A stretch of DNA of 32,482 nucleotides from Candidatus Aminicenantota bacterium (GTDB taxonomy: Bacteria > Acidobacteriota > Aminicenantia > Aminicenantales > UBA4085): positions 1 through 32,482 of the forward strand of contig JAUYDS010000030.1 in the NCBI GenBank assembly GCA_030691735.1, read 5' to 3'. A model generated the notes under the pieces. That model worked only from the letters and a program-made list of their open reading frames with translations, searched no databases and was not told the origin of the DNA. The translations under genes were made by a program, and so were the position numbers. This document shows, one piece after another, positions 8 through 29,599 of the stretch (positions within the stretch are counted from its first letter, which is position 1; every line of letters starts with the position of its first letter).

Positions 8-111
8 GTCAAGGGACGAGCCTTCGGCTCGCCACTCGCCCGTGGATACAAGCCACGGGCGAGTACGGCGGAAGTGGACCCCCGGGAAAGCCCGGGGCCC
101 CGGCCGCCGTC
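8..111 (+). repeat. Palindromic element, copy 1 (long form, 104 bp)
   Basis: Long copy of the element that recurs at 12233, 16166, 21528, 26734 and 29489. It begins GTCAAGGGACGAGCC and ends CCGGCCGCCGTC. It contains three hairpins: GAGCCTTCGGCTC, a CTCGCCCGTGG/CCACGGGCGAG stem, and a CCCCGGG/CCCGGGG stem. One base is missing from the loop of the third hairpin compared with the in-gene copies, giving 104 bases rather than 105. The frame that reads VKGRAF is open from the left edge to a TGA at 260-262, only 3 bases before the next start codon. The copy could therefore lie in the 3' end of an unseen upstream gene, but the AT-rich stretch at 226-246 looks intergenic. Positions 112-212 hold nothing else I can name. 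Confidence 0.85.
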
Positions 112-5128: not shown

Positions 5129-5294
5129 GTCATTACGAGCGATCGAAGGGCGCGCGGCAATCCGACCCAGAGGGTCGTCCTGAGCGAAGCGAAGGATCTC
5201 ATTCGACCTCGGACGAGCTTAGATGAGATCCCTCGAAAGACTCGGGACGACTCTTCGAGTCGGATCGCCACGTCGCTTCGCTCCTCGCGATGAC
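5129..5294. repeat. Long imperfect palindrome (GTCAT...ATGAC family), copy A
   Basis: Begins GTCATTACGAGCGA and ends CTCCTCGCGATGAC, with nested inverted segments (GGGTCGTCC / GGGACGACTC, GGATCTCAT / ATGAGATCC). Related blocks lie at 8567-8814 and 16844-16912. Blocks of this type, with GCGATGAC ends and GAGCGAAGCGA motifs, are known as dispersed repeats in many bacterial genomes. Here it fills the gap between miaA and hflX, and its end abuts the AAGGGA ribosome site of hflX. Confidence 0.8.
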
Positions 5295-5302
5295 AAGGGA
5301 AC

Positions 5303-8566: not shown

Positions 8567-8814
8567 GTCATCGCGAGGCACCGTAGGTGCCGAAATGCAC
8601 CGATCTTGTCATTGCGCGGCCGCGCAGCCGGCCGCGGCAATCCGACTCGAAGAGTCGTCCCGAGTCTTTCGAGGGATCTCATCCAGACTGATCGAGGTTG
8701 AATGAGATCCTTCGCTTCGCTCAGGACGACCCGTTGGGTCGGATCGCCACGGCATCTTCGATGCCTCGCGACGACTTCGTCGGATCACCGCGTCGCTCCG
8801 CTCCTCGTGATGAC
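8567..8814. repeat. Long imperfect palindrome (GTCAT...ATGAC family), copy B
   Basis: Begins GTCATCGCGAGGCACC and ends CTCCTCGTGATGAC. It shares long segments, inverted and direct, with copy A at 5129-5294, such as TCGAGGGATCTCATC and GGATCCTTCGCTTCGCTC-like stretches. A second GTCATTGCGCGG start lies within it at about 8607, so it looks like two units joined or one inserted in another. Confidence 0.75.
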
Positions 8815-8964: not shown

Positions 8965-9189
8965 GTCATTCGGGACTTGATCCGGAATCCAGTCTTATAA
9001 ACTGGATTCCCGCCTTCGCGGGAACGACGTCTGGATTCCCGCCTTCGCGGGAATGACGGGGAAAAAGCGCCATGCCCTTGTCATCCCCGCGGAGGCGGGG
9101 ATCCAGGTTACTTGCCGAACGGGCTGGATTCCCGCTCCCCACTTTCGTGGGGACAAGTTTACCCCTGCGAAGGCAGGGGCGGGAATGAC
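8965..9189. repeat. Cluster of short ATTCCCGCC-TTCG-GGCGGGAAT hairpin repeats
   Basis: Begins GTCATTCGGGACTTGATC and ends GGGAATGAC. It contains two close copies of the hairpin unit ATTCCCGCCTTCGCGGGAA (at about 9006 and 9036), a GTCATCCCCGCGGAGGCGGGG unit at about 9079 and degenerate units beyond. Such CGCCTTCGCGGG hairpin units with GATTCC/GGAATGAC flanks are common dispersed repeats in bacterial genomes. The surrounding stretch 8815-8964 holds nothing I recognise. Confidence 0.85.
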
Positions 9190-9647: not shown

Positions 9648-11114
9648 TTACTCGATGCTCTTGTCGATGAACCCTTTGCGGAAGGTCATCCAGAGGATCT
9701 TGAGGTCGAGGGCGAAGGTCCAGTTCTGGATGTAGTAGAAATCGTGTTCCAGCCGTTTTTCGATGGACGTGCTTTGCCGCAGGCCGTGGACCTGGGCCCA
9801 GCCCGTGATCCCGGATTTGATCTTGTGGCGGAGCATGTACTTGGGGATCTTTTCGGTGAATTCCTTGACGAACTCGGGTCGCTCCGGCCGCGGCCCGACC
9901 AGGCTCATCTCCCCCTTGAAGACATTGACGAGCTGGGGCATCTCGTCGATGCTGTATTTCCGCAGGAACCGCCCGATCCAGGTGATCCGCGGATCGCAGG
10001 GCGCGGACATCACCGGGCCGGTGTCCTGTTCCGCGTCGCAGACCATGGTTCGCAGCTTGTGGATGATGAAACGCGCTCCGTCCATGCCCACCCGTTCCTG
10101 ATAGTAGAAGACCGGCCCCTTGGACGTCAGCTTGATGAGCGCGGTAAAGATCAGGAAGAAGGGGAAGAAAATGACGATTCCTAATCCCGAGAAGACGATG
10201 TCGGCCATTCTCTTTATAACCCGGCGCGCCCCTCGAAGCGGCACCTCGTCGATCGAGATGACCGGAAATCCGTCCAGGTCCTGAATGTTGGCTTTGAGCG
10301 TCAGGAGCTGGAAGAGGTCGGGAATGAGGCGGACTTTGACCGGATACTTGTTCACGATCTGGATGGTCTCGAGGATCTTCGAGTAATTGTTGAGATCCAG
10401 GGCGACATAGATCTCGTTGAGGTTATGGTCTTCGATGACCCGGGCGAGGTCCTCGATGCGGCCGAGAACCGGCAAGGTGGCGCCGTCGATCCAAATCTCT
10501 TCGCCGCTTTTCCGCTCGTTGTCCAGGAACCCTTTGACGACGAAGCCCAGGTCTTTGTACTGGTACAGCTTTTGGGCGACGGCCACGCCCATCTCCCCGG
10601 CGCCGACCACGAGCACGTTCTGAAGGTTCAGGCCCCGGGCGAAGCGCCGTTTCATGACGAAATAGATTTGGTGGCGGAAGATCGAAATGGCCAGGATGAC
10701 GCCGAAGAAATAAATGATCAGAAAGAACAAAGACGGCCGTTCTATCATGAAGCCGAAGGCGGCCGGACGGTGGCCGCGGCTGTAGCCGATGATCATGTTC
10801 AAGATGGCCATATCGGCCAAAATGGTCAGGACCGCGTTCAGGCTGACGAAGAAGAAATCGTCGAGCTTCGTCCGCCTCAAACGGCTCTTGTAAAAACCCT
10901 GGAAATAGAAGATCACCATGTGGGCGGCGATGAACAGGGGCAGGACGATGAGGTAGGAACCGAAGACGGGAACGCCCTTGGCCGGATCCACGGGGAACAG
11001 ATAGATGATGGTGTTGAAACGCAGAAAATAGGCCCAGACATAGGTCAGGATGATGGCGAAGATATCGCTGGCGATGAAGAGCCCGACCAGCCGGGCCCGT
11101 TTGCTGGTGATCAC
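9648..11114 (-). CDS. Undecaprenyl-phosphate sugar phosphotransferase, WbaP/WcaJ type
   Basis: 488-residue polyprenyl-phosphate hexose-1-phosphate transferase that would load the first sugar onto undecaprenyl phosphate for a surface polysaccharide. The N-terminal half has about four membrane helices and a Rossmann-like CoA-binding-type domain (NVLVVGAGEMGVAVAQ). The C-terminal bacterial sugar transferase domain shows KRMADIVFSG with the membrane hairpin, IHKLRTM, DEMPQLVNVFKGEMSLVGPRPERPEF and SGITGWAQVHG. The GTG at 11114 is preferred: it overlaps the upstream stop as GTGA and has AAGGAA 5 bases upstream; an ATG at 11138 is the alternative. It is co-transcribed with the preceding glycosyltransferase. 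The sugar (glucose or galactose) cannot be deduced. Confidence 0.93.
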   Translation of the reverse strand: MITSKRARLVGLFIASDIFAIILTYVWAYFLRFNTIIYLFPVDPAKGVPVFGSYLIVLPLFIAAHMVIFYFQGFYKSRLRRTKLDDFFFVSLNAVLTILADMAILNMIIGYSRGHRPAAFGFMIERPSLFFLIIYFFGVILAISIFRHQIYFVMKRRFARGLNLQNVLVVGAGEMGVAVAQKLYQYKDLGFVVKGFLDNERKSGEEIWIDGATLPVLGRIEDLARVIEDHNLNEIYVALDLNNYSKILETIQIVNKYPVKVRLIPDLFQLLTLKANIQDLDGFPVISIDEVPLRGARRVIKRMADIVFSGLGIVIFFPFFLIFTALIKLTSKGPVFYYQERVGMDGARFIIHKLRTMVCDAEQDTGPVMSAPCDPRITWIGRFLRKYSIDEMPQLVNVFKGEMSLVGPRPERPEFVKEFTEKIPKYMLRHKIKSGITGWAQVHGLRQSTSIEKRLEHDFYYIQNWTFALDLKILWMTFRKGFIDKSIE

Positions 11115-12229
11115 TGCGCTTCCTTGAACGCCCGCCATTTCTGACGGATCGACGTCCCGATCTTTTCTTTAAAAATGTCCCGCGAGAAACCCTGCGCGTG
11201 GGCGCGAAGAGTCGTTTTATTAAATTCCAGGCCCCGGAATTTGTCAAGGGCGGCCAGCAGACAGGCGGGCTTGAGCTCGTAGAAGAAAACCCCCGTTCTG
11301 TCCTCGACGACCGTTTCGAGGGAACCGCCCCGCCCATAGGCCACGACGGGTGTTCCGCAGGCCTGGGCTTCGAGCGTCGCGATGCCGAAATCCTCTTCGC
11401 CGGGCAGGACCAAAGTCCTCGCGCTCTGGTAGAGCCGGCGCAGGTCGCCGCCCTCCTGAGCTCCCAGAAATTCGACGTTCGGCCGGGCCAGCCGGCGCAG
11501 TTTCTTGAAGTCGGGCCCGTCGCCGACGATCTTGAGCGGCCATCCGAGCCGGTTGTAGCCCGCGATGGCCAGGTCGATCATCTTGTAAGGCACGAGCGCC
11601 GAGACGATAAGATCGAACCTCCTTTCCGGCTCGACGTCCGGCGGCCGGAAGAAGTCCGTGTCGACCGGGGGGTGGACGACGTCGGCCTGTCGCCGATAAT
11701 ATTTCTCCACCCTCCGGGCGACGCAGCGCGAGTTGGCGATGAAGTGGTCGACCCGGGCGGAGGAGGTTACGTCCCATTGCCGCAGATAATGGATGATCGG
11801 CGGAATGAGGAGATTCGGAAAGAAGGAGAGCTTTTCACGCGAGAAATAGGCGTGGTATTGGTTCCAGGCATAGCGCACCGGCGAGTGGATATACGAAACA
11901 TGGAGGGCGTCGGGATGAGGGATGATCCCCTTGGCGACGCAGTGCGAGCTGGAAACGACGAGATCATAGCGCTGAAGGTCGAAGAGCTCGGCGGCCAGCG
12001 GAAACAGGGGCAAGTACCAGCGATAGTGCTTTTTGAGGAACGGCATCCGCTGAAGGAAGCTTGTCCCGACGACCTTTTTCTCGATGTTTTCGATCTGGCT
12101 CCCGGCGAAGTGAAAGAGGGTATAGATGGGCGCGTCGGGAAAGACCTCGGCCAGGGCTTCCAGGACCTTTTCTCCTCCCCGCTGGCCGGTCAGCCAGTCA
12201 TGGACGAGGGCCACTTTGATGTTTTCCAT
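11111..12229 (-). CDS. GT4-family glycosyltransferase, WbaZ-like
   Basis: 372-residue GT-B enzyme, probably adding a sugar such as mannose from a nucleotide sugar to a lipid-linked oligosaccharide. The N-terminus KVALVHDWLTGQRGGEKVLE and the segment HVSYIHSPVRYAWNQYHAYF are characteristic of WbaZ/mannosyltransferase B-like proteins found beside initiating transferases. In the C-terminal lobe, the E-x7-E nucleotide-sugar motif is in GEEDFGIATLEAQACGTPVV. The gene directly precedes, and overlaps, the initiating transferase. Its ATG lies 3 bases from a palindromic element (12233-12338), with no Shine-Dalgarno site visible, so initiation may be weak or use the element's structure. Confidence 0.88.
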   Translation of the reverse strand: MENIKVALVHDWLTGQRGGEKVLEALAEVFPDAPIYTLFHFAGSQIENIEKKVVGTSFLQRMPFLKKHYRWYLPLFPLAAELFDLQRYDLVVSSSHCVAKGIIPHPDALHVSYIHSPVRYAWNQYHAYFSREKLSFFPNLLIPPIIHYLRQWDVTSSARVDHFIANSRCVARRVEKYYRRQADVVHPPVDTDFFRPPDVEPERRFDLIVSALVPYKMIDLAIAGYNRLGWPLKIVGDGPDFKKLRRLARPNVEFLGAQEGGDLRRLYQSARTLVLPGEEDFGIATLEAQACGTPVVAYGRGGSLETVVEDRTGVFFYELKPACLLAALDKFRGLEFNKTTLRAHAQGFSRDIFKEKIGTSIRQKWRAFKEAQ

Positions 12230-12232
12230 CGT

Positions 12233-12338
12233 GTCAAGGGACTCGCCTTCGGCTCGCCACTCGCCCGTGACTTGTATCCACGGGCGAGTACGGCGGAAAT
12301 GGACCCCCAGGCGAAGCCCGGGGCCCCCAGCCGCCGTT
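12233..12338 (+). repeat. Palindromic element, copy 2 (long form, 106 bp) in a 5' leader
   Basis: Same element as at position 8, with several substitutions (GGACTCGCC for GGACGAGCC; GTGACTTGTATCCACGG in the central hairpin). At 106 bases it is one more than a multiple of three. It fills almost the whole space between a possible minus-strand -10 box at 12345-12340 and the glycosyltransferase start at 12229. Confidence 0.85.
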
Positions 12339-14450: not shown

Positions 14451-15599
14451 TTATTTTATCGTCTCCGCCAGCACCCGCTCGATCCCTTCGATCTGCCGGG
14501 CGATCGAGAATTTCTCTCGGACCGTCTTCCATCCTCCTTCGACCGCCAGGCGGACTTCAACGGGATTCAGGAAGAGGTGTTCCAGAGCCAGGGCGATCTC
14601 TTTGGGTTCCCGGGAATCGATGAGGAAGCCGTTCCGGCCGTGTTGGATGATCTCGGGCAATCCCCCCGCCCGGACGGCCAGCACGGGCACGCCGGCGGCC
14701 ATCCCATCCAGGGCCGCCCGGCCGAACGACTCGACGACCGAGGCCACGATCAAGACGTTCATGACCTTCAAGATATCGACCAGGTCGGGATGATAGCCGA
14801 CGAAGAGAACCCGGCCCTCGAGTCCGTTCTCTCTGACGATCTTCCGGAGACCGTCATAATACCCTTCCTTCCGGACCTCTCCGACAACGAGCAATTTCAG
14901 GTTCGGATATTTCCCGGAAAGCGCCGCCACGGCCAGGATCGCTTCCCGCTGCCCTTTTCCCTCATAGATCTTCCCGACGATGCCGGCGACAAGATCGTCC
15001 GCCGCGATCCCGAGATCCCTCCGGATGGAACTCTGCCGGCCTTCGTCGCCGGCCTGGATGTCGACTCCATTATGGATCAGGATCACGTTTTCGGCGCCCG
15101 CAAAGGCGGCCCTGGTGATCTCCGAATTGACGATGACGCGGACCGAGCTTTTGACGATGTATCTCGTCAGCGCCCGGCCTCCGAACAGATAACGAAGAAA
15201 GGGGCTCGGTCCCCGAAGGACCTCATGGATGGCCCAAACGTGGGGGATCCCCATTCTCCGGGCGGCCTTCGCGCCTGTGTTCATCGCCGCCGAATTCGTG
15301 AAGACCAGGTCGATCGACCTCTCGCGGATGATCGCCGCGATCTTCTTGACGCTTTTCAGGTTCCAGATCCAAGCGAACGGCTGCCGCCAAATCCGCGATC
15401 TTTCGGTGATCCACCATTTCATGGAAACGACGAAGGTTTCGAGACCCAGATCCGCGGCGGCATCCAGGAGAGGCCCCGGCCGGGGGACGATCAAAAACGG
15501 CGCATAGGACCGCCGGTCGAGACGTTTCAACGTCTCGAGCAACCACAGCTCCGCGCCGTTGAGCTCGGCGGAATGGGAGATGAACAGGATGTTCTTCAT
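14451..15599 (-). CDS. GT4-family glycosyltransferase
   Basis: 382-residue GT-B glycosyltransferase. The acceptor lobe starts ILFISHSAELNGAELWLLETL, a common WcaI/Rfa-type opening, with LVFTNSAAMNTGAKAARRMG further on. The donor lobe holds VAGIVGKIYEGKGQREAILA, then the conserved glutamates in VVESFGRAALDGMAAGVPVLAV; the second E-x7-E position is Asp here (ESFGRAALD), a conservative change seen in some members. The start overlaps the stop of the first gene of the operon by 4 bases. Substrates unknown. Confidence 0.88.
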   Translation of the reverse strand: MKNILFISHSAELNGAELWLLETLKRLDRRSYAPFLIVPRPGPLLDAAADLGLETFVVSMKWWITERSRIWRQPFAWIWNLKSVKKIAAIIRERSIDLVFTNSAAMNTGAKAARRMGIPHVWAIHEVLRGPSPFLRYLFGGRALTRYIVKSSVRVIVNSEITRAAFAGAENVILIHNGVDIQAGDEGRQSSIRRDLGIAADDLVAGIVGKIYEGKGQREAILAVAALSGKYPNLKLLVVGEVRKEGYYDGLRKIVRENGLEGRVLFVGYHPDLVDILKVMNVLIVASVVESFGRAALDGMAAGVPVLAVRAGGLPEIIQHGRNGFLIDSREPKEIALALEHLFLNPVEVRLAVEGGWKTVREKFSIARQIEGIERVLAETIK

Positions 15600-16795
15600 C
15601 GCCCCCTCAGGATCTGGCGATAGAAGGACAAGGTCTCCCGGGCCGTCTTTTGCCAGGTGAACGCCTTAGCCCGCTCCCGGCCCTTGGCTTGGAGCGATGC
15701 CCTCAATCGAGCATCTCCGAGGATCAGAATGATCTTGGCCGCCATGTCCTCGACGTTTTCAGGATCAAAATAGACCGCGGCGTCTCCCCCGATCTCGGGC
15801 AGGGCGGAAACGCCCGAGGCCGCGACCGGGAGGCCGCAGGCCATCGCTTCGAGGAGGGGTAGGCCGAAGCCCTCGCAATAGGACGGAAAAACGAGGGCCG
15901 AAGCGGCCTGATAGAGGTCCCGGATATCGGGATCGGGCAGATAGCCGAGCAACCTGATCCAGCGCTCCATGCCCCGGAAACGGATTCTGTCCAGGAGGGT
16001 CGCCTGATCCGCGCCTGCCCGGCCGACGAGCACGAGCGGGATCTTCGCGTATCGCTTGTGGACGACGGCCAGGGCATCGATCAGCCGGGGCAGATTCTTC
16101 CGGGGTTCGGAGGCGCCCACGAAGAGAAGAAAACCTTCGGGCAGATCGAACTTCCGGCGGGCCGCGTCAAGGGACGAGCCTTCGCGGCGAAAGTGGACCC
16201 CCGGGTAAAGCCCGGGGCCCCGGCCGCCGTCGACGGCTCCGGCACCGGCCGGCTCCTTGAAAATATCGTTCAATCCGAGATAGGTCACCTTGATCCGTTC
16301 GTCTCCGATTCCGAAGCGATCGATGAGAGCTTTTTTCGTGAACTCCGAGATCGTCACGATCCCATCGGCCTTGCGGAGAGACGACTCGGCCCGTTTTAAA
16401 AAATATCTTCTCGCCTCTTTATCGGCCCGGCCGGGGAAGTCCATGAAGAAAAGGTCGCAGACGGTGACGATCTTTTTCCCCGCCGTGGGAAGAATGAGCG
16501 GGGTCGGTGAATGGGTCAGGTCCAATCGCGTCCCGAAGATCGTGTCGAGCCGCGGCCGGCCGAGCTTGTACCAGGCGAAATTGACGCCCTTCACCGGCCA
16601 GCGAAGATCGCGAAACCGCCGGTTCTTGAACGGCGGAAGCTTGGCCGCGGGAAAGCGGTCCTTCCAAGAAGACGAAAAAAGGACGTATTCATTGTCGGCG
16701 TCGATGCGGGCCAACTCGAAGAGAAGATTCTTGAAATAGACCCCGACGCCTGTCTCTTCCCGAAGAAAGGAGCGAAGATCGAACCCGATGCGCAT
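15596..16795 (-). CDS. GT4-family glycosyltransferase with an in-frame palindromic element
   Basis: 399-residue GT-B enzyme, first gene of the polysaccharide operon. The N-terminal lobe opens MRIGFDLRSFLREETGVGVY and includes ADGIVTISEFTKKAL; the C-terminal lobe has FVGASEPRKNLPRLIDAL and the E-x7-E motif in SYCEGFGLPLLEAMACGLPVAA, as in mannosyltransferases of the WbaZ/MtfB type. Residues 189-210 are encoded entirely by a 66-base palindromic element (GGRGPGLYPGVHF...), placed between the two lobes just before the first strand of the donor domain. The reading frame is intact through it. The ATG at 16795 is chosen because upstream codons fall in a promoter and a dispersed repeat. Confidence 0.88.
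   Translation of the reverse strand: MRIGFDLRSFLREETGVGVYFKNLLFELARIDADNEYVLFSSSWKDRFPAAKLPPFKNRRFRDLRWPVKGVNFAWYKLGRPRLDTIFGTRLDLTHSPTPLILPTAGKKIVTVCDLFFMDFPGRADKEARRYFLKRAESSLRKADGIVTISEFTKKALIDRFGIGDERIKVTYLGLNDIFKEPAGAGAVDGGRGPGLYPGVHFRREGSSLDAARRKFDLPEGFLLFVGASEPRKNLPRLIDALAVVHKRYAKIPLVLVGRAGADQATLLDRIRFRGMERWIRLLGYLPDPDIRDLYQAASALVFPSYCEGFGLPLLEAMACGLPVAASGVSALPEIGGDAAVYFDPENVEDMAAKIILILGDARLRASLQAKGRERAKAFTWQKTARETLSFYRQILRGR
16166..16231 (+). repeat. Palindromic element, copy 3 (short form, 66 bp) inside a gene
   Basis: Short form: it keeps GTCAAGGGACGAGCCTTCG and the CCCCGGG/CCCGGGG hairpin to CCGGCCGCCGTC, but lacks the central hairpin of about 39 bases. At 66 bases (22 codons) it is read in frame on the minus strand by the glycosyltransferase gene. 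Confidence 0.9.
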
Positions 16796-16833: not shown

Positions 16834-16843
16834 CTTGGGGCCT

Positions 16844-16912
16844 GTCATCGCGAGGAGCGAAGCGACGTGGCGATCTCATAGACCCTCGCGAGCATCACGC
16901 GAGGACGATGAC
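16844..16912. repeat. Palindrome (GTCAT...ATGAC family), copy C, short
   Basis: Begins GTCATCGCGAGGAGCGAAG and ends CGCGAGGACGATGAC, a 69-base relative of the blocks at 5129 and 8567. It lies between the divergent polysaccharide operon and the M20 peptidase gene. Confidence 0.75.
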
Positions 16913-18238: not shown

Positions 18239-18398
18239 GAGACGTAGGGGTCGCGTCTACACTTTCCACTTTTTCCCCAAACGATCTCGGTCAAGAGACG
18301 TAGGGGTCGCGTCTACACTTTCCACTTTTTCCCCAAACGATCTCGGTCAAAATCCATAACATTAAAAGGATAAAAGTGGAAAGTGTAGACGCGACCCC
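18239..18398. repeat. Exact 56-bp tandem duplication plus an inverted partial copy
   Basis: Two identical 56-base units (18239-18294 and 18295-18350) start GAGACGTAGGGGTCGCG and end CGATCTCGGTCAA. A 27-base inverted copy of their core lies at 18372-18398, so unit 2 and this copy can form a perfect 27-pair stem (18303-18329 with 18372-18398). The block sits exactly between two converging genes and could act as a two-way terminator. It looks like a REP/REPIN-type element; no spacers or transposase are present. Confidence 0.9.
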
Positions 18399-19396: not shown

Positions 19397-19607
19397 CCTG
19401 ACCGTCGAACAGTTTCGGGGACATGATTCCCTGTCCCCGTTGGAGACAATGAAATGATCGGTTTAGCCGGTCGAAACAGCAGGGGGAATTCGCAGACACA
19501 TACCGAATTCCTCGCTTTGCTCCGAATTCGGTATGTGTCTGCGAATTCTGAAAAGACGGGGACAGGGTATCGTGTCCCCCTTGTCTTGAAACTGTTCGAC
19601 GGTCAGG
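19397..19607. repeat. Three-tier nested palindrome between divergent genes
   Basis: Outer arms of 20 bases match perfectly (19397-19416 CCTGACCGTCGAACAGTTTC; 19588-19607). Next come GGGGACATGATTCCCTGTCC-type arms (19417-19438 and 19558-19579), related with two mismatches and each able to fold on itself. At the centre is a perfect 25-base inverted repeat (19486-19510/19524-19548, core CGCAGACACATACCG) with a 13-base loop. The central unit recurs at 23084-23140. It looks like a REPIN-like or MITE-like insertion into an older palindrome. The rest of 19347-19718 holds the promoter of the Fe-S oxidoreductase and nothing else recognised. Confidence 0.9.
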
Positions 19608-19718: not shown

Positions 19719-21929
19719 TTGAGATCGTACCGCATCGACAAGCACCCTATCCTGAGCCCGCCCACCGCAGAGACTATCGATTTTTTTTGGAAAGGCCGGA
19801 AGCTCCTCGCCAAGAAGGGCGAGACGATCTCTTCCGCCCTCTTCGCCCATGGCCAGAGAATATTCAGCTATCATTATAAGGACCACGCGCCCCAAGGCAT
19901 TTTCTGCGCCAACGGCCAATGCGCCCAATGCCTGGTCCTGGCCGACGGACTTCCGGTCAAAGCCTGCATGGAGCTCGTCCGCCCGGGGATAAGGGTCGAG
20001 CCTGTGGACGGCCTTCCCGAGCTCCCGCGCCTTTCCGCATCCCCGCGCCTCGGCCCCGTCGAGGAGATCGCCGTCGCCGTCCTGATCATCGGCGGCGGGC
20101 CGGCCGGATTGTCGGCGGCCATCGAGCTCGGCAAGCTCGGCATCGAAACGCTCCTCGTGGACGACAAGCATCGGTTGGGCGGCAAGCTCGTCCTCCAGAC
20201 CCATCGCTTCTTCGGCTCTGCCGACATGGTCTACGCGGGCACGCGCGGCATCGACATCGCCACGAAGCTCGAGGCCGAGCTGCGCGCGTTCTCCAGCGTC
20301 CGCGTCTGGCTCCAGAGCGCGGCCCTGGCCGTCTTCAGCGACCGGAGGGTCGGTATCCTGGCCGAAGGCCGGCGCTACGCGCTGGTCCGGCCGCAGGCGC
20401 TCCTCGTGACCGCGGGCGCCCGGGAAAAATCCCTCGCTTTCCAGGGGAACACCCTGCCCGGCGTCTACGGCGCCGGCGCTTTCCAGACGATCGTCAACCG
20501 GGACCTGGTCCGCTCGTCCGAGAAACTATTCATCGTCGGCGGGGGCAATGTCGGGCTCATCGCCGGTTATCATGCCCTTCAGGCCGGGATCCCCGTCGTC
20601 GGCCTCGTCGAGGCCCTCCCCGAATGCAGCGGTTACAAGGTCCACAGAGACAAGCTGGCCCGGTTCGGCGTGCCCATCTATACGTCGCATACCATCCTGA
20701 GCGCCAACGGTCAGGACTCGGTCGAATCGGTGACGATCGCCCGGCTCGACGAGAAGTGGAAACCCGTCCCCGGCAGCGAGCGCTCTTTCGCCTGCGACAC
20801 CATCCTCATCGCCATCGGCCTCGACCCGGTCAACGAGTTTTACGACAAAGGGCGGGAATTCGGCATGGCGACGTTCGCCGCCGGCGACGCCGAGGAGATC
20901 GCCGAAGCGTCCGCGGCCATCTTCTCCGGAAAGATCAAGGGGCTCGAGGTCGCCCGATCCTTGGGCACCGACGTCGGCGAGATCAAAAAGGAATGGTATG
21001 AAACGGCCGAGATCCTCAAATCGAAGCCGGGCCGGACCGAAGCGGAGACCTATCCGGCGGACGAAAGCGGCGTTTTCCCGCTTCTCCACTGCGTCCAGGA
21101 GATCCCCTGCGATCCGTGCACGACGGTCTGCAAGCAGGACCTCATCCATATCCATTCCTCGGACATCCGCTGCCTGCCCGTCTTCGAGGTCAAGGACGGC
21201 GCCAAGGGCTGCACGGGCTGCGAGAAATGCGTCACGATCTGCCCCGGGCTGGCCATCTCGCTGGTCGATTACCGGAAGGACCCGGAATTTCCGACCGTAA
21301 CGCTCCCCTATGAGTTCATGAAAGACAGCATCGAGGTCGGCGACATCATCACCGTCCTCGACACCGAAGGCAACGCCCTCGCCGACGTCGAGGTCATCGG
21401 CGTCCGGGCGGTCAAGGTCAACGACCGGACGGTGCTCGTCAAGCTCAAAACGCCGCGCGCCGTGGCCAAGAAGGTCGCCGGTCTGCGGATCCAGGACGGC
21501 CAAGTCACAAAACCCATGGCCCGCTACGTCAAGGGACGAGCCTTCGACTCGCCACTCGCCCGTGGCGTGTATCCACGGGCGAGTACGGCGGAAGTGGACC
21601 CCCGGGCAAAGCCCGGGGCCCCGGCCGCCGTCGAGCGCCTGGCCGATGACACGATCATCTGCCGCTGCGAACGGGTGACGGCCGGCGAGATCCGGGATCT
21701 GGTCCGTCAAGGCTACCGTGACATCAATGAGATCAAGGCGGTGACCCGGGCCTGCATGGGTTCGTGCGGCGCCAAGACGTGCACGCCGCTCATCCACCGT
21801 CTGTTCCGCGAAGAAGGGATCGCGGAAAAAGATATCGTGGACCAGCCCAAGAGGCCGCTGTTCATGGAGGTCCCGCTCGGCACCTTCGCCGGCTGCGACG
21901 AAACAGAAGAGGCGGACCATGGCCGATAA
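19719..21929 (+). CDS. Multi-cluster Fe-S/FAD oxidoreductase (sarcosine oxidase/proline dehydrogenase alpha-like) with an in-frame repeat
   Basis: 736 residues. Start TTG 19719 is set by AGGAGG at 19708-19713. Domains: a [2Fe-2S] ferredoxin-like domain (about 15-100; C63, C68, C71, C83), a pyridine-nucleotide-disulfide FAD/NAD module (about 120-430; GGGPAG 125-130; second Rossmann loop FIVGGGNVG), a ferredoxin-type region with CDPCTTVC and CTGCEKCVTICPG (about 455-515), and a BFD-like [2Fe-2S] domain (about 643-700; CRC and CMGSCGAKTC). The order fits alpha subunits of heteromeric sarcosine oxidase, hydroxyproline/proline dehydrogenase and HcnB, here joined with small subunits usually encoded separately. 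Residues 604-638 come from the palindromic element, in the linker before the BFD domain. It overlaps the next gene by 11 bases; the two would pass electrons from an amino-acid substrate to NAD or another carrier. Confidence 0.85.
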   Translation: MRSYRIDKHPILSPPTAETIDFFWKGRKLLAKKGETISSALFAHGQRIFSYHYKDHAPQGIFCANGQCAQCLVLADGLPVKACMELVRPGIRVEPVDGLPELPRLSASPRLGPVEEIAVAVLIIGGGPAGLSAAIELGKLGIETLLVDDKHRLGGKLVLQTHRFFGSADMVYAGTRGIDIATKLEAELRAFSSVRVWLQSAALAVFSDRRVGILAEGRRYALVRPQALLVTAGAREKSLAFQGNTLPGVYGAGAFQTIVNRDLVRSSEKLFIVGGGNVGLIAGYHALQAGIPVVGLVEALPECSGYKVHRDKLARFGVPIYTSHTILSANGQDSVESVTIARLDEKWKPVPGSERSFACDTILIAIGLDPVNEFYDKGREFGMATFAAGDAEEIAEASAAIFSGKIKGLEVARSLGTDVGEIKKEWYETAEILKSKPGRTEAETYPADESGVFPLLHCVQEIPCDPCTTVCKQDLIHIHSSDIRCLPVFEVKDGAKGCTGCEKCVTICPGLAISLVDYRKDPEFPTVTLPYEFMKDSIEVGDIITVLDTEGNALADVEVIGVRAVKVNDRTVLVKLKTPRAVAKKVAGLRIQDGQVTKPMARYVKGRAFDSPLARGVYPRASTAEVDPRAKPGAPAAVERLADDTIICRCERVTAGEIRDLVRQGYRDINEIKAVTRACMGSCGAKTCTPLIHRLFREEGIAEKDIVDQPKRPLFMEVPLGTFAGCDETEEADHGR
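21528..21632 (+). repeat. Palindromic element, copy 4 (long form, 105 bp) inside a gene
   Basis: Starts exactly at a codon boundary (GTC) and spans 35 codons in the plus-strand frame, reading VKGRAFDSPLARG ... KPGAPAAV. It lies between the [4Fe-4S] and BFD-like [2Fe-2S] domains of the oxidoreductase. All three hairpins of the element are retained, one with a G-to-A change (CTTCGACTC). Confidence 0.95.
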
Positions 21930-23083: not shown

Positions 23084-23140
23084 ATAATTCGCAGACACAT
23101 ACCGAATTCGTACCGAGTTCGGTATGTGTCTGCGAATTAT
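23084..23140. repeat. Perfect 23-bp palindrome between converging genes
   Basis: Arms 23084-23106 and 23118-23140 (core CGCAGACACATACCGAA) are exact inverted copies around an 11-base loop. The core is the same as in the centre of the 19397-19607 palindrome. The stop codon of the minus-strand pcnB gene (23137-23139) lies inside the right arm. It probably also acts as a terminator for both genes. Confidence 0.9.
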
Positions 23141-26733: not shown

Positions 26734-26877
26734 GTCAAGGGACGAGCCTTCGCGGCGGAAGTGGACCCCCGGGTAAAACCCGGGGCACTCACCCGCGATG
26801 TAAATACGCGGCTGAGCACGGCGGAAGCGGATCCCCAGACAAAGCCTGGGGCCCCTGCCGCCGCCCCGGCCGCCGTC
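26734..26877 (+). repeat. Palindromic element, copy 5 (composite, 144 bp)
   Basis: Begins as the short form (GTCAAGGGACGAGCCTTCGCGG, then the CCCCGGG/CCCGGGG hairpin), continues with a diverged central hairpin (ACCCGCGATG ... CGCGGCTGAG) and a second diverged third hairpin (CCCCAG ... CTGGGG), and ends CCGGCCGCCGTC. It therefore looks like two element halves joined. It is intergenic, but its 144 bases are open in the usual frame on both strands. It lies immediately upstream of the amidase gene and may have displaced that gene's promoter, as none is visible. Confidence 0.85.
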
Positions 26878-26914
26878 GAGCAGCGCCTTGGCCAACTACG
26901 GCGCCATACGAGGC

Positions 26915-29599
26915 ATGAGAAAAAGAAGATCATTTTCGGCGGCGGTCCTTCTCATCGGTTTGACCCTGGTTCTCATTTCGTCCTGCGCCGAGCGGCCGCC
27001 CATCGCCCATTCCGTCCAACCCGGCCCCTTCCCCGTGGTCGAGACGACCATCGCCGAAATTCATAAGGCCATGAAAGACGGGCGTCTCACGGCACGCGCC
27101 CTCGTCCAGGCTTACCTCGCGCGGATCGAGGCCTACGACCAGCCGAGCGGCCTGAACGCGATCGTCGTCATCAACCCGGCGGCGCTCGCGACCGCGGACG
27201 CTCTCGACGCCGAGTTCAGAAGAACAAAAAAACTGCGGCCACTGCACGGCATTCCGGTCATCGTCAAGGACAATTACGACACGGCCGACCTGCCGACGAC
27301 GGCCGGGTCGCTCGCCTTGAAAGGCTCGGTCCCGCCTGACGACGCCTTCCAGGTTCGAAAGCTCCGCGAAGCGGGCGCCATCATCCTGGCCAAGTCCAAC
27401 ATGGCCGAATGGGCCTTCAGCCCGTATCTGACGGAAAGTTCGATCGCCGGGGTGACCCGGAATCCGTATGACCTCGAACGCGTCCCGGCGGGTTCGAGCG
27501 GAGGGACAGCCGCTTCGATCGCCGCCTCCTTCGGCGCGGTCGGCCTCGGCACGGACACCGGGAATTCGATCCGCGGGCCGTCTTCGCACTGCGCCCTGGT
27601 CGGGATCCGCTCGACGATGGGCTTGACCAGCCGCGACGGGATCGCTCCGCTTTACCTGCGCAACGACGTCGGCGGCCCCATGGCCAGGACGATCGAGGAC
27701 GCGGTCCGCGTGCTCGAGGCGATCGCCGGCCCCGACCCGGCCGACCCGATCACCGAGATGAGCCGCGGCAAGATCCCGAAAAGCTACCTCCCCTTCCTGG
27801 ACAAGAACGGCCTCAAGGGCGCGCGGATCGGCGTTTTCCGGACGTTCATCGAGACCAAGACGGCCGATCCTCAGATCAAGGCCCTGGTTGAAAAGGCCGT
27901 CGCCGATATGAAAGCCCAGGGCGCCGAGATCGTCGATCCGTTCGTCATCCCGGATTTCGAAGCCCTGACCAAGAGCTTGTGGTGCGACATGTTCAAGCAC
28001 GACGTGGAAGCCTACCTGGCCTCGCGCGGACCGACCGCACCGTTCCATACGCTGGCCGATATCGTCAGATCCGGGCTGTACGTTCCGGCCAATGAACGCC
28101 GGCTGAAGCAGGCGCTGGCCGCGGACGAGAAGGAGACCGCCAAGTGCCTCGATCTCTATCACGACCCGCGGAACATCAAGTTCCGCGAGGCGGTCCTCAA
28201 GGCCATGGCCGAGCGGAAAGTCGACGCCTTCATCTATCCGACATGGAGCAACCCGCCGCGGAAGATCGGGGATATGGAGAGCCCGGCCGGCGACAACAGC
28301 CAGATCATCCCGCCGCATACAGGCCTGCCCGGTTTCAACATCCCCATGGGATTCACCTACGGGAACCTGCCTGCAGGCCTTCAGATCGTGGGGAAACTGT
28401 TCGGCGAGCCGGAGCTGATCAGGATCGCCTACTCCTATGAACAGACGACGAAACACCGCCGCCCCCCCGAGCGTTTTCCGGAACTCGGCGAAGGCCGCGG
28501 AACGAAAGCGGATGCGGAGCCGAGTCCCTTCACGCTCGAACTCCAAAAGTCCCCGGTTGAAACGAGCTTCCGCGCTCTCCGCGCCGTCTCATCATCGGCC
28601 GCTTGGGCAAGCGGGAGCCGCGGCGCGATCTGCAGGACGACGGACGGCGGAAAGACATGGGAGTCCGTCCTTGTCCCGGGCGGCGACAAACTCGATTTCC
28701 GTATGCTGGCCGCCTTCGACGCCGATCGCGCCCTCGTCGCCAACGCCGGAAGTCCGGGCTTCATATACAAAACGACGGACGGCGGAAAGAACTGGAAAAC
28801 CGTCCTCCGCGACGACCGGCCGGGCTTCTTCATCGACGCCCTGGTCTTCTGGGACGACAAGCGCGGCCTTGCCATCGGCGACCCGATCGATGGCGCGTTC
28901 CTCGCTCTGGCGACAGAGGACGGCGGAGAGACATGGCGGCCTCTGCCTAAGGACCGCCTGCCCGCGCCGCTCAAGGGCGAAGCGTTTTTCGCCGCCAGCA
29001 ACAGCTCTTTGGCCGTCCAAGGCCGGACGCTCGTTTGGTTGGGCAGCGGCGGCGGGCCGGCCTCGCGCGTCTTCGCCAGCCTGGACTCGGGGAGGTCTTT
29101 TCGCCCGGCCCCGGCGCCCGTCACGGCCGGGATGTCAACACGAGGAATCTTCGGCCTCGCCTTTCGGACCCCCCGAGAGGGTTTCGCCGTCGGCGGTGAT
29201 TACCGGGAGATGGATTTCCGCGACGGCATCGCCGCCGCGACGCACGACGGCGGTGAAACGTGGCAGCCGCTCGGCCCGGCAGGAGTGTCGGGCTTCCGGG
29301 AGGGCGTGGCCTTCGTCCCCAACCGGTCGTGGGTTCTGGCCGTCGGGCCGGGGGGCAGCGACGAGTCGCTCGACAACGGCCGGACCTGGCGCCCTTTCGC
29401 CCTCGACAGCTGTCACGTCGTCGCTTTCGCCCCGGACGGCAAGTTCGGCTGGGCGGCCGGCAACAAAGGCAAGATAGTCCGGATAGCTGTCAAGGGACGA
29501 GCCTTCGGCTCGCCACTCGCCCGTGGCTTAAATACACGGGCGAGTACGGCGGAAGTGGACCCCCGGGTAAAACCCGGGGCCCCGGCCGCTGTGAAGTGA
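26915..29599 (+). CDS. Lipoprotein amidase fused to BNR/Ycf48-like repeats
   Basis: 894 residues. A lipoprotein signal ([15 protein letters not shown] ... LISSC) precedes an amidase-signature domain (about 40-530) with the full triad: K118 in VKDNYD, cis-Ser S195 in GSSGG and nucleophile S218 in DTGNSIRGP. Such enzymes hydrolyse amides, peptides or amidated glycans. An Asp/Pro-rich link leads to a beta-propeller-like region (about 550-858) of BNR/Ycf48-type repeats, with [32 protein letters not shown] and [10 protein letters not shown]. Residues 859-893 are encoded by a copy of the palindromic element, one codon before the stop, so the natural C-terminus has been replaced or extended. ATG 26915 is preferred because the lipoprotein signal follows at once; TTG 26888 is possible. 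The ribosome site is weak. Confidence 0.85.
29489..29593 (+). repeat. Palindromic element, copy 6 (long form, 105 bp) at a gene's 3' end
   Basis: In frame from a GTC codon, 35 codons reading [13 protein letters not shown] ... KPGAPAAV, followed only by AAG and TGA. Same phase as the copy in the Fe-S oxidoreductase at 21528. Confidence 0.95.

Follow-up and report, generated by a model that had tools for sequence, protein, structure and literature searches.

The gene for a GT4 glycosyltransferase at positions 15596–16795 of the window, by which we mean the whole 32,482-nucleotide stretch of Candidatus Aminicenantota DNA analysed here, is under purifying selection and was very probably entered recently, in frame, by a mobile hairpin element that is non-autonomous and belongs to a 63-bp class. 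For this analysis, the source genome of the window (G000; 2.86 Mb in 211 contigs) was compared to that of a sister of the same genus (G001) and to those of further relatives. The in-frame short repeat that the initial annotation had noted in this gene is real. The features concerned are as follows.

15596–16795, minus strand: GT4 glycosyltransferase gene with the insert, supported by Pfam domains on both sides of the insert, orthologues, and dN/dS against the sister
16168–16230, plus strand: short-form copy of the repeat, 63 bp, in the orientation CAAGGGACGAGCC...GGCCGCCGT, giving 21 extra residues on the minus strand; placed by alignment to the empty site of the sister
16166–16167, plus strand: target GT on the left flank of the insert, recurring at 16229–16230, where the element ends

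The insert in the GT4 gene

The GT4 gene of the sister shares about 90% nucleotide identity with that of the window (roughly 9% divergence) and has no insert. At its empty site, ...GGCGCCGTC is directly followed by GAGGCGGCC..., and the window holds 63 bases more at this junction. The coding length is 1197 nt in the window and 1134 nt in the sister, and this difference of exactly 63 nt bears out the earlier statement that the insert is in phase. A size of 66 bp and 22 residues had been given for it; the true values are 63 bp and 21 residues, because one flanking Asp/Glu is ancestral and the 66 bp took in shared flank. The copy differs from the 63-bp consensus at 2 positions. Because GTC occurs at either end, the insert can be placed anywhere from 16166–16228 to 16169–16231, and the GT at 16166–16167 and 16229–16230 represents either a 2-bp duplication or a target requirement. 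The start of the gene is more likely at 16795 (MRIGFDL) than upstream at 16879; the stop is at 15596.

Pfam analysis of a 427-residue frame placed the N-lobe domain PF13439 at residues 44–204 and the C-lobe domain Glycos_transf_1 (PF00534) at residues 244–403. The inserted residues are located at about 217–238, i.e. between the two lobe domains, as the initial annotation had it. Between window and sister, dN was 0.05 and dS 0.28 (dN/dS 0.18), demonstrating purifying selection on the gene, most of which is older than the insertion. An alignment with close relatives had been suggested as a check, with an unrelated loop at this position in orthologues counting against the insertion. No added residues occurred at this position in 25 of 26 relatives. 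In G006 alone, an unrelated loop extends the protein here by about 12 residues, and inspection of its DNA revealed no element sequence. This loop partly fits the refuting condition, but shows only that the inter-lobe loop tolerates changes in length. Among the species sampled, the insert is specific to the source species, and its effect is most likely just a longer linker between the lobes. In an AlphaFold model built from four paralogues of the window, the C-lobe was reasonable and the N-lobe and insert had pLDDT values below 50; therefore, we make no structural claim from this model.

Copy number, size classes and target site of the repeat family

The left end of the element (TCAAGGGACGAGCCTTCG, up to 2 mismatches) had 158 matches in the source genome, and a reversed control pattern had none, which places the repeat well above chance expectation. 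This number, based on left ends, is a lower bound, as contig ends hide further copies. Many contigs end in element copies about 120–140 bp from the end (C20:122, C67:122, C69:123, C72:123), indicating that the assembly breaks at the repeat and that the true copy number is underestimated. Five further copies are present in the window, all on the plus strand.

10–110, plus strand: long-form copy, 101 bp
12235–12337, plus strand: long-form copy, 103 bp (not a multiple of three), intergenic; the site is empty in the sister
21530–21631, plus strand: long-form copy, 102 bp, in frame in an FAD/2Fe-2S oxidoreductase gene just ahead of the Fer2_BFD domain; the sister has no copy
26736–26876, plus strand: composite copy, 141 bp, intergenic (short form plus a diverged second H2–H3 unit)
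29491–29592, plus strand: long-form copy, 102 bp, in the last codons of gene 26888–29599

The copy at 12235–12337 precedes the start codon of a glycosyltransferase gene (11111–12229) by a few bases and displaces the leader of that gene, and the one at 29491–29592, ahead of the stop codon, makes up the C-terminus of an amidase/BNR-like gene product. The window holds other repeats as well: a tandem pair of dRS3-like hairpins at 9002–9058 (CTGGATTCCCGCCTTCGCGGGAAYGACG), resembling CGTC-tagged REPs; dispersed repeats in inverted arrangement at 5129–5295, 8633–8775 and 16843–16875, with GTCATCGCGAGGAGCGAAGCGACGTGGCGATC at 5263 and 16844; two identical 56-bp units in tandem and, after them, an inverted copy of 27 bp in the interval separating two genes (18239–18398); and a further palindromic family with inverted repeats at 19486–19548 and 23084–23140 that have GAATTCGCAGACACATACCGAATTC in common. 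No Rfam match was obtained in the window.

Copies of the source genome were sampled by search and by stretches, a partial sample in part picked by similarity, in which the lengths of 103 copies were mainly 63 and 102 bp, followed by 129, 141, 178 and 180 bp. Exactly 63 bp were found in 23 of the 103, so that the second size class proposed from the GT4 copy is real. According to the alignment, the 102-bp form corresponds to the 63-bp form plus 39 bp (GCTCGCCACTCGCCCGTGGCTTGTATCCACGGGCGAGTA; hairpin 2 together with half of hairpin 1), while the 141- and 180-bp forms correspond to the 63- and 102-bp forms plus a diverged 78-bp repeat of the part containing hairpins 2 and 3. Some longer forms consist of one copy nested within another, at the latter's own GGAAGT^GGACC. 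Folding of the 102-bp form gives three hairpins (−43.1 kcal/mol; z of −6.9 versus shuffles), and one hairpin of the element has an 8-bp stem. The short class does lack the central hairpin, as had been described, but the 3' half of the first is missing too (39 bp in total), and only the third is kept. Copies in the source genome diverge by about 2% from the consensus, compared to the roughly 9% that separates the GT4 gene from its counterpart in the sister, and none of those sampled was autonomous. As the 63-bp form occurs with the identical deletion junction in G006 and other relatives, this class is old and spreads independently. None of 31 sampled copies in the sister belonged to this class, although it is present in the source genome and G006; it seems to be lost or inactive in the sister.

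Left-end counts in relatives were 78 for the sister, 38 for G006, 33 for G022, 23 for G016, and 6 for G002, and 0–2 for nearly all others. A scan of 396 genomes of the phylum revealed multiple copies in this one order only, with a patchy distribution within it; single left-end matches with one mismatch elsewhere in the phylum look like chance. An exact search with the left end against 84,980 species returned, among the matches listed, nearly only Candidatus Aminicenantes records, and viral contigs contained no exact match.

Joined flanks of insertions in the source genome were searched in the sister, and 14 sites besides that in the GT4 gene were aligned across the junction. The sister was empty at all 15 compared orthologous sites, which argues that the insertion is recent. 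Two of the 31 sampled sister copies share their site with a sampled copy of the source genome. Over 94 copies, the insertion point was GT^BGA (T in 100%, G in 96%, then B, G in 93%, and A in 73%). Most empty sites have GA, so that these two bases are part of the target. GT is found at both junctions in most of the 94 copies and is missing from the junction at 7 of the 15 empty sites of the sister. It may represent a 2-bp duplication or a requirement or, because of these seven sites, may be supplied in part by the element. The element is mobile and species-specific, and inserts at GT^BGA in either orientation.

Genic copies and their reading frames

Copies were called genic or intergenic by a codon-usage score with a threshold, which allowed classification of 88 copies with enough flanking sequence. 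Among these, 17 were in-frame intragenic, 3 were apparent shifts, 2 were situated between opposite genes, 33 had coding sequence on one side, and 33 were intergenic. All 17 in-frame copies, that of the GT4 gene included, have a length divisible by three (63 bp in ten, 102 bp in six, and 204 bp in one), as do 43 of the 66 one-sided and intergenic copies. With the frame-breaker counted, the ratio of such lengths to all others was 17:1 in genes versus 43:23 in one-sided and intergenic positions (Fisher p=0.011). The frame-breaker, L094 (G000:C45, around 1493–1680), is a 178-bp composite copy in a gene that is continuous in the sister. Two other candidate frameshifts, L030 and L035, were dismissed, as the sequence on inspection looks like gene boundaries. 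In G022, a 101-bp copy (L176) breaks the frame of a gene that, from reading its translation, is dTDP-glucose dehydratase-like. As these frame-breaking copies exist in genes, we concluded that insertion is not frame-aware, but survival is. In-frame copies also occur in relatives (two each in the sister and G006, one in G022).

Four reading frames are used. In the forward direction, the element is read as VKGRAF... in six copies and SRDEPS... in two; reversed, it is read as DGGRGPG... in five and TAAGAPG... in four. The GT4 copy is indeed read on the strand opposite to that of the copies at 21530–21631 and 29491–29592, the window's two further intragenic ones. That an open frame on this strand is notable, as the initial annotation had suggested, was not supported: the same orientation is used by 9 of the 17 in-frame genomic copies, and in 97% of cases dinucleotide shuffles of the 63-mer are open in at least five of six frames. 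With a single stop in all six frames, the element has an openness equalled by shuffles 97% of the time for the 63-mer and 11–14% for the 102-mer. Stop-free frames as a sign of selection for coding were accordingly rejected (P=0.97 for the short and 0.11–0.14 for the long form). Among the genic GT^BGA sites of the window, 54% have the phase of the GT4 copy, whose orientation follows that of the target, and 32% have the phase of the oxidoreductase copy, i.e. 86% fall into two (+/−,2) phases. Target phase together with GC-rich composition thus accounts for open frames in both orientations. Genes hold 94% of the GT^BGA sites in the window, but 20–25% of the copies, which implies that genic copies are strongly purged or that intergenic DNA is preferred.

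The inter-lobe loop had been regarded as a place where added residues should do least harm. Such a position is typical of the family: copies lie at a domain edge or between domains in the GT4 protein, the FAD/2Fe-2S oxidoreductase, a sulfatase-TPR protein, a GH94-type protein, a Fer4_20/Pyr_redox_2 protein, a protein with two ABC domains, a PilZ/acyltransferase protein, a rhamnosidase and HypF. It is not universal, as other copies lie within UvrD_C, PhzF, PGM_PMM_II, Glyco_hydro_38C and radical SAM domains; one more is located just past the matched part of a PAS domain.

The many copies between domains, and peptides rich in Gly, Pro, Ala and charge, might point to a protein module whose peptide is useful as a flexible linker, making the genic copies adaptive. 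We consider this very unlikely: four frames on both strands yield four different peptides, at the sites compared none of these shows conservation across species (the sister is empty at all of them), and genic copies are strongly depleted relative to target availability. That the insert is ancestral and was precisely excised from the sister, rather than recently gained, is more improbable still. Seamless loss would look identical at any single locus, but the sister is empty at each of the 15 sites compared, the GT4 insert is also missing from more distant relatives, and the copies are nearly identical to one another. Equally remote is an artefact of assembly or binning, through wrong joining of repeat reads to unique genes when the genome was put together from a metagenome; the assembler did struggle with the repeat, as the many contigs ending in copies indicate, but both flanks derive from the same gene, which is matched by one uninterrupted orthologue, the junction obeys the family motif, and in-frame copies occur in independently assembled genomes of other samples.

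We thus favor recent insertion of a mobile element into the GT4 gene. An enzyme provided in trans would copy the hairpin DNA as an intermediate and insert it at GT^BGA regardless of reading frame. Selection would then purge most genic insertions and keep those that extend a linker or loop. Tolerance would require no special coding function, as the element is GC-rich and nearly stop-free with main classes divisible by three, and would be further aided by a target motif that is phase-locked to the codons of GC-rich genes (GTB|GAN or NTC|VAC).

Candidate mobilising enzymes and known repeat families

No mobilising enzyme was found among the Y1, Y2, serine-recombinase and IS110 families, none of which follows copy number. 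PF01797 is absent from G022, PF04986 from G000 and G016, PF02371 from G016 and G022, and PF00239 (serine recombinase, IS607-like) from all five copy-rich genomes (G000, G001, G006, G016, and G022). No element copies flank the Y1 and Y2 genes examined. In L080, a partial copy has an IS91-like fragment next to it; this lead was dropped, as PF04986 is absent from G000. Two IS110 loci (G000/G001) with the element 1–2 kb away were taken as chance, since their arrangements differ and they are not at an element end.

A separate question, which does not touch on the insertion itself, is whether the mover is a HUH tyrosine transposase of the REP type (IS200/IS605 or RAYT), which would make this an ordinary REP family. 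An insertion motif that is short and fixed would fit such a mover, as would hairpins that lack terminal inverted repeats, and three Y1 transposases are encoded in the source genome. We regard it as unlikely, given that none is found in G022 (96% complete, 33 copies), that Y1 genes are common in copy-free genomes, and that those examined have no flanking element sequence. In addition, one-sided targets are usual for this class of transposases, whereas the specificity of the element reaches 3 bp downstream of the junction. As a tentative alternative, the mover might belong to an enzyme class new to such repeats; a GT^BGA target phase-locked to codons in GC-rich hosts, together with size classes divisible by three, might then routinely give viable in-frame extensions in either orientation.

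Among known systems, Rickettsia palindromic elements (RPE) are small hairpin repeats of about 100–150 bp that occur in frame in many unrelated genes, lengthen conserved proteins by tens of residues but do not destroy them, and have no known mobiliser (PMC2229807, PMC10969869, PMC3767692). The 63/102-bp hairpin repeats described here similarly lie in frame within conserved genes (17 genic copies). The host, however, is a GC-rich Candidatus Aminicenantes rather than an intracellular alphaproteobacterium, the sizes are modular (63/102/141/180), and four frames on both strands are used instead of a single conserved peptide and frame. Nearly every site is specific to one species here, in contrast to R. 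japonica, in which the RPE positions studied are conserved among orthologues (PMC2229807, PMC10969869, PMC3767692).

CGTC- and GTAG-tagged REPs are short hairpin repeats, some of them intragenic and adding 20–30 residues; a single REP is 20–40 bp long and carries its tag beside the stem, and the CGTC families have no dedicated transposase (PMC3733652). Our element resembles the CGTC type in a right end that reads CCGT followed by C in 43% of copies (CGT followed by B overall), in one 8-bp stem, and in the lack of an associated transposase gene at the Y1/Y2 loci examined. In contrast to a CGTC at one end beside an 8–9 bp stem with a 4–5 nt loop, CGT is about 11 nt from the nearest stem here, the base following it is that of the target, and the unit has 63–102 bp with up to three hairpins. 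Unlike in GTAG REP/RAYT systems, PF01797 is absent from the copy-rich G022, and the Y1 loci examined have no flanking copies. MITEs with open reading frames (the 107-bp species of Correia/NEMIS, ERIC, YPAL) are likewise non-autonomous with open frames fused to genes, and their size classes can differ in that a stop-free one is found in genes and another between them (PMC2229807). The ends of our element, CAAGGGACGAGCC on the left and GGCCGCCGT on the right, are not inverted copies, however, and there is no TA duplication. Going by these traits, we describe the family as one that works like RPE; we do not file it as one because it lacks the CGTC-tag geometry, the single peptide ascribed to RPE, and the terminal inverted repeats of MITEs.

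A literature search retrieved no paper on such repeats in Aminicenantes. It is in Rickettsia and Wolbachia that in-frame palindromic elements are best known, and the insertions studied there look old. In the pair of related genomes compared here, fresh insertions can be seen beside their empty sites; they occur in both orientations and in several size classes, at a target motif that is defined. Two questions thereby become testable: the identity of the mover of such elements, and the manner in which selection sorts small peptide additions to functional proteins.
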